Below, in pieces: positions 3,689 through 7,431 of a DNA stretch of 64,000 nt. The stretch spans positions 1 through 64,000 of the forward strand of contig JAGNEZ010000029.1 of NCBI GenBank assembly GCA_018003015.1, in the 5' to 3' direction. Under the pieces are notes generated by a model. The model saw nothing but the letters and a program-made list of their open reading frames with translations. It searched no databases and was not told where the DNA came from. Each line of letters starts with the position of its first letter. The stretch's first letter is position 1. The stretch is from Phycisphaerae bacterium (lineage in GTDB: Bacteria; Planctomycetota; Phycisphaerae; UBA1845; PWPN01). Position numbers and translations under genes: made by a program.

Positions 3689-4762
3689 TTACGCCAGCCA
3701 TTCGTCGCGATGAGCCGCCACGAAGCGGTCGTCGTTGAGATGCGGATAGGCGGCGTACACGCGGTCAATCTCGGCCATCTGCCCTTCGGAAAGCTCCTCG
3801 TGGGGATCCAGGCACCAGCGACCGGCCAGCAGTCCCTGGCGGCGAAGGACCTCGTGAAGCCCGGCAATGCACCCGGCGAAACCGTTGGCTGCATCGAAGA
3901 AAGCGCCGTTGGCGTCCGTGATCTCGACGTTCAGACGCAGCCACTCGACCGGAATGGTGTTGCTCCGGGTGTCTGATGCGTGGATCGCCTCGAGCTGTTC
4001 TACTGCTTTCCGCGTCCACACCGCCCAGTGTCCGAGCAACCCGCCCACGATCCGCTGGGTGACCGATTTGCCGTCGCGAACGAAGGTGAAGGGTGTCAGA
4101 AGATCCGCGATGATGTGGTCGTCGTTTCCGGTGTAGAGGACAACCTGATCCGCCCGACCGGCTTCCGCTACCGCCCGGACGACGTCGTGGGTCTGGTAGC
4201 GGTTGAACGGAGCGATCTTGATCGCCGCCAGATTGTCGATCATCGCCAGCTCTCGCCAGAATTCCACCGGCAGCAGTCGTCCGCCGACGGCGGGCTGCAG
4301 ATAGAAGCCCATGATCGGCATGACTTCCGCCACGGCACGAGCGTGGGAGATGAGGGCCGCCGTCGGCTCGGCCCTCAGGGCGGACAGGCTCAGCAGGCCG
4401 ATATCGTACCCCAGGTCCTTGGCCTGGACAGCTTCCCGGATCGCCTGGATGGTCGGTCCGCAAAGGCCCGCGGTCTTGACAACCGTCCGACCGGCCTGTC
4501 GCTCGTGCCGGCACATCTCTTCGACGGCCAGTTCAAGTACCGGACGGAGTAGTCCGACCCGTGGATCGTGGATCGCGAATTGCGTAGTATGAACTCCGAC
4601 GGCCAGCCCGCCCACACCGGCCGCCAGGTAGTATCGGCTCAGGGCCTTCTGCCGCCGCTCATCGAGTCGCCGATCCGAGGTCAGAGCCAGAGGATGCGCG
4701 GGAATGACCAGCCCGCGGCGGAGCGAATCGCGAACTCGGGTTGCCAGAGCCGGCAGAGCCAT
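3689..4762 (-). CDS. Dihydrodipicolinate synthase (DapA)-family aldolase/lyase
   Basis: Product of 357 residues, a class I aldolase (beta/alpha)8 barrel. Residues in support are IPAHPLALTSD near the N-terminus, GVHTTQFAIH (56-65), MGFYLQPAVGG (151-161, with a candidate proton-relay Tyr154) and AIKIAPFNRY, where Lys182 is the expected Schiff-base residue. Family members cleave or condense pyruvate or 2-keto-acid substrates. At 357 residues it is longer than the usual ~295 of DapA, with an added C-terminal helical region, so lysine synthesis is unlikely and a role in sugar-acid catabolism is more plausible. No strong SD precedes the ATG. It is divergent from the polyprenyl synthetase gene. Confidence 0.8.
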   Translation of the reverse strand: MALPALATRVRDSLRRGLVIPAHPLALTSDRRLDERRQKALSRYYLAAGVGGLAVGVHTTQFAIHDPRVGLLRPVLELAVEEMCRHERQAGRTVVKTAGLCGPTIQAIREAVQAKDLGYDIGLLSLSALRAEPTAALISHARAVAEVMPIMGFYLQPAVGGRLLPVEFWRELAMIDNLAAIKIAPFNRYQTHDVVRAVAEAGRADQVVLYTGNDDHIIADLLTPFTFVRDGKSVTQRIVGGLLGHWAVWTRKAVEQLEAIHASDTRSNTIPVEWLRLNVEITDANGAFFDAANGFAGCIAGLHEVLRRQGLLAGRWCLDPHEELSEGQMAEIDRVYAAYPHLNDDRFVAAHRDEWLA

Positions 4763-4905
4763 CGCCGTTGGAGGATATCCCGGATGGCCCCGGTAGACAA
4801 TCTGGGGGCTCGCGAACCGTCTCGAACGCCGCTACAATGCGAGGACGGATTGGATCGCACTGGTTTCCCGGCCCAAGGGCCGGAACTGGGGCCGAGAGCC
4901 AGAGA

Positions 4906-5874
4906 ATGCCTGCGAGTTCATCATTGTACGAACCGATCGCAACCGACCTCGAGAAGGTCTGCGCCGTGTTCGACGACGAACTGTTCTCGGATCTGCCCGT
5001 TGTCAACCAGTTGTGCGCCCATCTTCGGCACTATCGGGGCAAGATGCTCCGGCCCGGCCTGCTGCTCCTGTCCGCCCGGGCCTGCGGCAAGGTGACCGAC
5101 GAGCACCTGGCCCTGGCCGCGATCGTCGAGCTCATACACATGGCCACCCTGGTCCACGATGATGTGCTTGACGAGGCCGACGTCCGCAGACGGGGGCCGA
5201 CAATTCACCGGCTGGAAGGGAACGAGGCAGCAGTCCTTCTCGGCGATTACCTCTTCAGTCACGCATTTCACCTCTGCAGCTCGCTGGACTCGCAGTACGC
5301 CTCCAGGATCCTGGGGGCGACGACCAACACGGTCTGCGAGGGGGAACTCCATCAGGTTCATCACCGCGGCGACCTCAGCCTCAGCCAGGAGCAGTACCTG
5401 GAGATCATTACCCGCAAGACTGCTTCACTCATCGGCACGTGTTGCCGACTGGGCGCTTATTTCGCAGGAGCCGATGAGCGGGTGGCAGCGGCCCTCGAGC
5501 AGTACGGTCTGAGTTTCGGGATCGCTTTCCAGATCACCGACGATGTGCTCGACATCATCGGGAATGAGGATCGGATGGGCAAGAGCCTGGGCCGCGATCT
5601 TCAGAAACGCAAACTCACCCTGCCGCTGATTCACTCCCTGGCCAAGTCGCCGCCGGAAACACAGCGGAGACTCCGTAAACTCCTCACCGCCGAAGAGCCG
5701 GACCGATCCGCGGTCTGCCAGATCCTCGGCGAGACCGACAGCGTGAGCTTCGCGCTCGTGACCGCCCGCAAGTACATCGAAACCGCCACCGCAGCGCTGG
5801 CGGTCCTGCCTCCCTCAGACGCCCATGACGCCCTTCGGCGCATGGCCACCTTGGTCAGTGAGCGGGAGCAATAA
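4906..5874 (+). CDS. Polyprenyl (trans-prenyl) diphosphate synthase
   Basis: Product of 322 residues. Both aspartate-rich motifs of the all-alpha prenyltransferase fold are intact: HDDVLDEAD (first DDxxD, 85-89) and ITDDVLDIIG (second, 212-216). GKMLRPGLLLL (46-55), the substrate-binding KxxRP region, is also present, as is KTASLIGTCC. The enzyme extends allylic diphosphates with IPP in the cytosol to make octaprenyl- or longer quinone side chains. The start at 4906 (MPASSS) was preferred because upstream in-frame codons give a low-complexity leader unlike the family. IspD at 28440 supplies the same pathway. Confidence 0.92.
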   Translation: MPASSSLYEPIATDLEKVCAVFDDELFSDLPVVNQLCAHLRHYRGKMLRPGLLLLSARACGKVTDEHLALAAIVELIHMATLVHDDVLDEADVRRRGPTIHRLEGNEAAVLLGDYLFSHAFHLCSSLDSQYASRILGATTNTVCEGELHQVHHRGDLSLSQEQYLEIITRKTASLIGTCCRLGAYFAGADERVAAALEQYGLSFGIAFQITDDVLDIIGNEDRMGKSLGRDLQKRKLTLPLIHSLAKSPPETQRRLRKLLTAEEPDRSAVCQILGETDSVSFALVTARKYIETATAALAVLPPSDAHDALRRMATLVSEREQ

Positions 5875-5884
5875 CCTGCCTCCA

Positions 5885-5902
5885 TTGGACAAAAGTGCCC
5901 AA
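5885..5902 (+). promoter_or_regulatory. Upstream palindrome 1 (candidate enhancer-binding-protein site)
   Basis: TTGGACAAAAGTGCCCAA is an interrupted palindrome of form TTGGrCA-N4-TGCCCAA with one mismatch between the 7-bp arms. Its centre is 31 bp (about three helical turns) from the second copy and about 90 bp upstream of the sigma-54 -24 element, a normal position for an activator site. Confidence 0.6.
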
Positions 5903-5915
5903 TCGAGTACCCACC

Positions 5916-5933
5916 TTGGGCAATAGTGCCCGC
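5916..5933 (+). promoter_or_regulatory. Upstream palindrome 2 (candidate enhancer-binding-protein site)
   Basis: TTGGGCAATAGTGCCCGC repeats the first site with a perfect inner inverted repeat GGGCA-ATAG-TGCCC. The shared core TTGGrCA-A-N2-GTGCCC on the same face of the helix suggests one dimeric regulator binding twice. Confidence 0.6.
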
Positions 5934-5982
5934 ATCACGGTCTCCCCGTGCTCGTGCCGGCTCTCCGGATCGGTTCGCGGTC

Positions 5983-5998
5983 TGGCACGGGAGTTGCA
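5983..5998 (+). promoter_or_regulatory. Sigma-54 (-24/-12) promoter
   Basis: TGGCACGGGAGTTGCA matches the RpoN consensus TGGCACG-N4-TTGCA, with the invariant GG (5984-5985) and GC (5996-5997) exactly 10 bp apart. Transcription should begin near 6009, about 60 nt before the small gene at 6070. I saw no comparable -24/-12 pair elsewhere in the window. Confidence 0.78.
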
Positions 5999-6069
5999 CA
6001 GGGTCATTCCGAACGGCCTGCAATGGGCAGGCGAGAAATCGTGAGGCGTGTGATTGAAGGAGATCTATC

Positions 6070-6273
6070 ATGATTCGCAAGATTCGCAAAGTCCTGGTGG
6101 TGCTGGGTATCAGCGGCGTTACCCTCTTCCAGGCCAATGGGTGTGACACCTTCATGCAGGAGTTCGTCAAGGGCTTCAACCTGGGCTACTCAAGCCAGAC
6201 CGGCGAGGAGTTCTTCACCCCGTGCAGCGACGGGTCGTACGGTATCCTCGGCGAGTGCCCCAGTGGCGATTGA
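6070..6273 (+). CDS. Small exported Cys-containing peptide under sigma-54 control
   Basis: Product of 67 residues, not recognised. Basic N-terminus MIRKIRK, hydrophobic segment about 8-20, then QANGC with Cys at about 25, which could be an atypical lipobox or the end of a signal peptide. The 40-residue mature part is acidic and Gly/Ser-rich, with two more Cys (in TPCSDGSYG and GECPSGD). A strong GAAGGAGATC ribosome site precedes the ATG. The gene is alone between its own promoter and terminator. The dedicated RpoN promoter with two upstream sites argues for a real, conditionally expressed gene. Possible roles (envelope signal, stress lipoprotein, rhomboid substrate) are speculation. Confidence 0.72.
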   Translation: MIRKIRKVLVVLGISGVTLFQANGCDTFMQEFVKGFNLGYSSQTGEEFFTPCSDGSYGILGECPSGD

Positions 6274-6306
6274 CCGAGCCGGGATGCGGACGCCTCCCCG
6301 GTCCAG

Positions 6307-6345
6307 CGGGGCCCGACCTCTCATGGCCGGGCCCCGTTCGTTGTT
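6307..6345 (+). terminator. Rho-independent terminator after the 67-aa gene
   Basis: CGGGGCCCG (6307-6315) pairs perfectly with CGGGCCCCG (6328-6336) across a 12-nt loop and is followed by the T-rich TTCGTTGTT. It closes the sigma-54 unit before the rhomboid gene. Confidence 0.75.
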
Positions 6346-6498
6346 GGGCGGCGGTCGGTGAGTGGCGATCAGCGGCAAGACAACCGGACTCGAGGTTCCA
6401 GGTCCCCATAACCGGTCCTGCGAGAACTCGCCTGCCAGTTCCGCGTAAGTGTGAAAGAGGTTAACCTTGTGCTCGTCAACCGTACCAGGGAGCGTGAA

Positions 6499-7431
6499 AT
6501 GAGTTGGCAGGACCGACCGTATGCACATGAGGACTCCGCCGAAGGGCCCCGCAGATCGTACCACGGGTCGGGCATGGAGCCGCTCAGTGTCACCGCCCTG
6601 ATCTTCATTGCCAACGCCGTGGTGTTCTACCTCAGGTACGTGCCCGCGATCTACATCCCGGTAGAATCGCTCGGCCAGATGCAGCCGGAGGCCGTGCTCC
6701 ACGGCCAGGTCTGGCGGTTGTTCACCGCCACCTACCTGCATGTCAATCTGACTCACATTCTGCTCAATATGCTGGGCTTGTACTTCCTCGGCCCGGCTCT
6801 GGAACGGGTCTGGGGACGGCGGCAGTTCTTCCTGGTCTACACGCTTGGCGGTGTCGCTGGGAACATCCTGTTCACCGCGGCCGGCACTATCGGGTGGATC
6901 GAATCCACGACGTTGGGCATGGGCGCCTCGGGGAGCATCCTGGCGTTGCTCGGTGCCGCGTCGGTACTGTTCCCCGACGCGGAGATCTATGTCTACTTCC
7001 TGTTGCCAGTGCGGATTCGGACCTTCGCCATCGCCTACGGCGCCTGGTTCGTGTACAACATCGTTCATAAGGGCTCCAACTACGGCGGCGATCTGTGCCA
7101 CCTGGGCGGCATCCTGCTCGGCTACTGGTGGGCGGAGTCCGGCGGCGTTTCGATTTCCGGCAAGCACTACACCACCAGCGACCCCGGATCAATGGCCGCC
7201 AAGCTGAAATCGTTGGTCAGACCGAGTCTCACCGGTTCCGCGAACCGTCCCTTCGAAGCCAGCCAGGAGCATGCGGACCAGGAGACCATCGATCGTATCC
7301 TCGGCAAGATCTCTGAGAAGGGGATCGACGGCCTGTCGCCGGAGGAGAAGGCCGCTCTGGGGGAGGCAACACGCCGGTCGCGTAAACGGGGTGGTGATTC
7401 GGCTCCGCCAAGCCCTTCCGGTTCACCGTAG
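6499..7431 (+). CDS. Rhomboid-family intramembrane serine protease
   Basis: Product of 310 residues with six or so membrane helices. The Ser-His dyad is visible: GMGASGS with Ser144 and DLCHLGG with His201. HVNLTHILLN supplies the oxyanion-hole His86 and Asn90, and WR (about 72-73) lies in the L1 loop. Rhomboids cleave membrane-embedded substrates near their outer face. The C-terminal 80 residues are soluble and charged. An AGGGAG six bases before ATG 6499 selects this start over an upstream in-frame one. It follows the 67-aa peptide gene but is separated from it by the terminator. Confidence 0.92.
   Translation: MSWQDRPYAHEDSAEGPRRSYHGSGMEPLSVTALIFIANAVVFYLRYVPAIYIPVESLGQMQPEAVLHGQVWRLFTATYLHVNLTHILLNMLGLYFLGPALERVWGRRQFFLVYTLGGVAGNILFTAAGTIGWIESTTLGMGASGSILALLGAASVLFPDAEIYVYFLLPVRIRTFAIAYGAWFVYNIVHKGSNYGGDLCHLGGILLGYWWAESGGVSISGKHYTTSDPGSMAAKLKSLVRPSLTGSANRPFEASQEHADQETIDRILGKISEKGIDGLSPEEKAALGEATRRSRKRGGDSAPPSPSGSP

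Follow-up and report, generated by a model that had tools for sequence, protein, structure and literature searches.

The unit at positions 5885-6345 of the window (the whole 64,000-nucleotide stretch analysed, from C29, a contig in a planctomycete assembly of 6.86 Mb, G000) is quite probably among the targets of a compact sigma-54 regulon, in which small exported peptides and a small RNA would be controlled by one putative NtrC-type enhancer-binding protein (EBP) acting through two sites. The core proposal of the initial annotation, a predicted sigma-54 promoter with upstream activator sites before a small exported peptide, is supported. Its picture of a self-contained unit with the peptide as sole product is not, as a motif scan of the whole genome for other copies found the paired sites with a -24/-12 promoter at three further loci (contigs C10, C35 and C66). 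From the shared motif we infer that the same activator would switch on these three loci as well. The stress or signal response proposed for the unit is conjectural. Sigma-54 regulons of uncultured planctomycetes have been little described so far.

The unit in the window

The two palindromes, the GG-N10-GC promoter, the leader, the Shine-Dalgarno sequence and the 67-codon ORF were all found where the initial annotation had placed them, on the forward strand. The putative distal upstream activating sequence (UAS1, TTGGACAAAAGTGCCCAA, 5885-5902) is a palindrome matched by model R1, and the putative proximal one (UAS2, TTGGGCAATAGTGCCC, 5916-5931) is a palindrome with the core GGGCAMTAKTGCCC. A distal site is also found at other loci, 30-34 bp from the proximal site. 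The exact core occurs at 7 places in 13 genomes of the family, compared with 1 for the reversed control. The sigma-54 promoter (TGGCACGGGAGTTGCA, 5983-5998) has a perfect GG-N10-GC and lies 51 nt after UAS2; the pattern TGGCACG-N4-TTGCA has one perfect match in the 64-kb window, which is this sequence at 5983. Transcription would be expected to start near 6009. The leader (6009-6069) contains the Shine-Dalgarno sequence GAAGGAG at 6057-6063 and has an unremarkable fold (z -0.1), and the ORF (6070-6273, MIRKIRK...CPSGD) is predicted to encode a small exported peptide.

The GC-rich, terminator-like hairpin which follows (6306-6345) had been described as a strong terminator. The hairpin itself is indeed strong (6307-6336, fold -42 kcal/mol, z -2.3). 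In this genome, however, it has a poor U-run, and it is absent from the listing of the terminator scan. The orthologous locus in the nearest relative (L015) has a better U-run (TTTTT).

On the same strand, the unit is preceded by a gene for an idsA-like polyprenyl synthetase (4741-5874) and followed by one for a rhomboid-family membrane protein (6451-7431); both are listed ORFs, and their true starts may be further in and at 6499, respectively. The rhomboid-family gene probably forms a separate transcript from the peptide ORF.

When both strands of the window were ranked with scoring matrices from other loci, the TGGCACGGGAGTTGCA promoter with both palindromes came top. The combined score of 49.7 is far above anything else in the window and above simulated 64-kb maxima of mean 18.5 (sd 2.6, highest 26.3, n=30). 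It is partly circular, since the window's own motif had been used to find some of the training loci. The independent test of paired sites and promoter is the class-wide set of loci outside training (see next section).

Protein searches of relatives recovered a near-identical orthologue in the nearest relative (G001) and homologues in two more genomes (G002 and G003). Contrary to what had been claimed, the peptide is therefore not an orphan, although the remark that no family was recognised for it stood, with none found in Pfam, NCBIfam or PDB. Conservation of the promoter goes together with conservation of the ORF. This includes an orthologue from another genus (47% identity over 49 residues), which is in synteny, lies after idsA and keeps the paired sites and promoter. 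The arrangement of paired sites, promoter and small peptide is found in relatives. The G002 homologue (L039) has an exact GGGCACTATTGCCC UAS and TGGCACGCCGCTTGC; it was found by protein similarity rather than by motif, as were two other peptide homologues (L014 and L046) which likewise have the sites. At the G003 peptide locus (L038) the sites are imperfect.

The peptide could also come mainly from read-through of the idsA-like transcript, with the upstream elements playing a minor part. The ORF starts 195 bp downstream of the idsA-like gene and in the same orientation, the interval contains no obvious terminator, and an idsA-like gene lies upstream of the orthologous peptide in both G001 and G002. 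However, the G003 homologue (62% identity over 42 residues) has no idsA within the surrounding 17 kb, and a perfect -24/-12 promoter with two sites is improbable by chance. The pattern of divergence from the G001 orthologue also argues against read-through, as the spacer between UAS2 and promoter differs by 23%, compared with 6% for UAS1 and 0% for the Shine-Dalgarno region (6057-6069); UAS2 and the promoter each differ by 12.5%. We consider this explanation very unlikely.

Paired sites in the genome and its relatives

The genome contains rpoN (contig C117), on the presence of which the promoter proposal depends, and 18 matches to the Sigma54_activat domain, corresponding to about 17 EBP genes. 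The -24/-12 hexamers alone mean little, since exact TGGCAY-N5-TTGC occurs 29 times in the genome against 18 for the reversed control. Most of the other exact matches are inside genes; a few, which lack the paired sites, precede groES, a flagellar rod-type gene and others.

The site architecture consists of two tandem palindromes with the core TGGGCA-N3/4-TRCCC, approximately three helical turns apart. Spacing was 30-34 bp at all 13 loci measured, a set which leaves out the G003 peptide locus with its imperfect sites. A sequence-only model of the paired sites, from which the promoter was excluded, was searched in the genome itself and in 200 relatives. At E<=0.1 it found exactly four loci in the genome (C10, C66, C29 and C35), all of which also have a -24/-12 promoter, and in G001 it found the orthologous set of four (contigs C23, C5, C86 and C42). 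More loci were found across the family, order and class; as approximately 20 chance matches are expected at E<=0.1 in 200 genomes, some of the weak class-level matches are probably due to chance. A strong sigma-54 promoter (score of at least 13 within 35-140 nt downstream) was present in 9 of 24 paired-site loci which had not been used to train the promoter matrix, compared with 0.5% of control stretches. In these nine the promoter lies 50-110 nt downstream. As the promoter was not used in the search, this ties the paired sites to sigma-54. The output of the class-wide loci is again either a small lipoprotein-like peptide or a transcript whose hairpins have GGGGAG loops.

At C66 both sites and a -24/-12 promoter at 53 nt precede a 72-residue peptide (..LFQSGGCN..), and at C35 both sites and a promoter at 51 nt precede one of 81 residues (..AATGCDEL..). 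Several observations count against a common regulon. The C66 promoter has a poor -12 element (GTGAA), the C35 and C66 peptides have little similarity to the window peptide past the signal sequence, and no paired site was found in the near-complete family genomes G004, G008 and G010. Each locus could instead be served by an EBP of its own, with similar recognition helices among these proteins, giving a shared promoter style with no common regulon. With about 17 EBPs encoded there would be proteins enough for this, the distal sites are degenerate, and the distance from site to promoter varies, being about 50-53 nt at peptide loci and mostly about 81-110 nt at loci without an ORF (129 in G012). 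Against it, the 14-bp core and the 30-34 bp pairing are found at all four loci of the genome and nowhere else in it at E<=0.1. We regard separate activators as unlikely, and prefer a single regulon.

Some further matches were seen outside the main set. In G033, from another family, paired sites are followed 50 nt on by TGGCACGCAGGTTGCT and a gene for a 99-residue lipoprotein-like protein (L191, approximately 1500-2050), and the presumed terminator hairpin there has a GGGGAG loop. The same paired sites with TGGCACACCGCTTGCA lie before a Ser/Thr protein kinase-like gene in G003 (C312:16652 onwards, L075/L068). In G047 (L204), a 36-residue hydrophobic ORF (MFDPFGIVSGILGFYSGLW..) lies downstream of a -24/-12 and a paired-site match, both of them weak. 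Nine weak paired-site matches in G053, on both strands and many contigs, are probably a repeat element. The primase locus on C51 has a single site and is doubtful as a member.

Exported peptides and structured transcripts

The 67-codon ORF encodes a basic, hydrophobic signal sequence up to ..LFQANGC, then an acidic mature part of 43 residues counted from the Cys, which contains 3 Cys. The eight peptides aligned, including one weaker order-level match without a promoter shown, all have a basic n-region, a hydrophobic core and a conserved G-C pair, with little similarity outside the common signal region and this pair. Glutamine at -4 and asparagine at -2 of the window peptide deviate from the usual lipobox, with which the C35 peptide (AATGC) and the G033 protein (LSTGC) agree. 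The window peptide is predicted to be exported and is perhaps lipid-anchored. Pfam and NCBIfam gave no useful match for any of the aligned small peptides.

The C10 locus (C10:69804-70004, minus strand; L119/L074) has paired sites and a -24/-12 promoter, no convincing ORF, and hairpins with GGGGAG loops. Its counterparts (L120, L121, L079, L078 and L135) also lack an ORF, and such loci are found in G001, G002, G006, G009 and G012, and probably also in G102, G105, G107 and G108. Their predicted transcripts are structured, have loops of the GGGGAG type and in most cases include a terminator-like hairpin. Three of the ORF-less transcripts fold better than shuffled sequences (z -3.1, -2.3 and -4.7). 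In an alignment of five terminator hairpins, two of them nearly identical, the loop UUGGGGAGAA is constant and three stem pairs are changed on both sides. When L026, L065, L067 and other ORF-less transcripts were compared with Rfam, none gave a match up to E=1. The C10-type transcripts are put forward as a candidate new small-RNA family. Pairing of the GGGGAG loop with the peptide mRNAs was also considered; a complementary CTCCCC is present in the 3' part of the window unit, but the idea was dropped because it is absent from C35 and C66.

As ORF-less transcripts belong to the same regulon, the product of the window unit might also be an RNA, with the ORF untranslated and the reading frame incidental. 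However, comparison with the G001 orthologue gives 7 synonymous against 3 non-synonymous codon changes in the ORF, which, small as these numbers are, suggests that it probably encodes a real protein under constraint. The strong Shine-Dalgarno sequence, the homologues with signal sequences in three other genomes and the ordinary fold of the leader also argue for translation, and an RNA-only product appears scarcely credible.

The putative activator and known sigma-54 systems

In the single-regulon reading, one of the roughly 17 NtrC-type EBPs would bind both sites as a pair of dimers which cooperate on the same face of the DNA, an arrangement suggested by the spacing of about three helical turns. 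On arrival of a signal the EBP would oligomerise, remodel the sigma-54 polymerase and open the promoter at 5983-5998, and the short monocistronic mRNA would give rise to the exported, perhaps lipid-anchored peptide. The outcome would be that small envelope peptides and regulatory RNA are produced in one switch-like burst. Our guess is that the peptides act in the cell envelope. We would also guess that the RNA works via its GGGGAG loops, with a CsrA-like protein as one conceivable binding partner, given the GGA in the loops and the sigma-54 promoters reported for csrA in Pirellula (PMC12316311).

No EBP signature was found near the window, the key peptide and RNA loci or the further paired-site loci, except for one near C35, so it is solely the shared motif that points to a single activator. 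The exception (L062, C35:16754, minus strand) is an EBP which contains PAS and has a divergent AAA+ region, and it lies 8 kb away from the peptide locus on C35. It could be the activator, but distance is the sole argument for it and is not convincing. Eight of the approximately 17 EBPs were scanned for naming with NCBIfam, and none of these reached an equivalog cut-off; the best scores were 367 bits for the LuxO model (cut-off 800) and 411 bits for the PEP-CTERM response regulator PrsR (TIGR02915, cut-off 502.6).

Regulons built along these general lines around sigma-54 are already known, some of them driving small RNAs. The LuxO-Qrr system of Vibrio combines sigma-54, an NtrC-type activator and small RNAs. 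Its likeness to the regulon proposed here lies in NtrC-type activator sites before the -24/-12 promoters of small transcripts. However, it belongs to another phylum, its palindrome differs from the planctomycete one, and the planctomycete regulon has exported peptides as co-targets. None of the eight EBPs scanned reaches the LuxO cut-off. In the enterobacteria, ZraR/ZraP and PspF/Psp are systems in which sigma-54 and an EBP drive small envelope proteins, but the window peptide has no similarity to Psp or Zra proteins in Pfam and NCBIfam. PrsR is a sigma-54 EBP which controls exported surface proteins; in contrast to the products of that regulon, the window peptide has no PEP-CTERM tail, as its C-terminus (..GILGECPSGD) lacks both the PEP motif and a C-terminal membrane helix and has no match in NCBIfam. 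A further source places LuxO, a homologue of NtrC, in a circuit which includes small RNAs (PMC11407668).

A limited search of the literature and family databases found no description of the regulon, motif, peptide family or RNA, and among the papers found it turned up none dealing with sigma-54 control of small peptides or RNAs in planctomycetes. A regulon of small exported peptides and a small RNA is apparently undescribed. It is possible, and we put this forward only tentatively, that the system is class-wide, with one sigma-54 activator controlling fast-evolving exported lipopeptides and GGGGAG-loop small RNAs, for example CsrA-like decoys, and so linking envelope remodelling with post-transcriptional control. 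Any planctomycete genome can be searched for the motif, which consists of two TGGGCA-N3/4-TRCCC sites spaced 30-34 bp and a -24/-12 promoter 50-110 nt on. Together with a peptide family that has no entry in Pfam or NCBIfam and a candidate family of small RNAs that is apparently controlled in the same way, the motif makes the function of the small exported peptides directly testable.

Sigma-54 promoters have been predicted in Planctomycetota for groES-type chaperones and csrA, with a Pirellula study cited (PMC12316311); in the available part of that source the palindrome, small peptides and small RNA are not mentioned. The genome studied here resembles these predicted regulons in having a sigma-54 promoter before groES, where a good -24/-12 (TGGCATTGGGCTTGC) lies approximately 120 bp upstream of the gene with paired sites absent (L109, C46:17689, minus strand). 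Another -24/-12 sequence, TGGCACGCGGTTTGC, is found upstream of an apparent flagellar rod gene (L107, C39:49274, minus strand).
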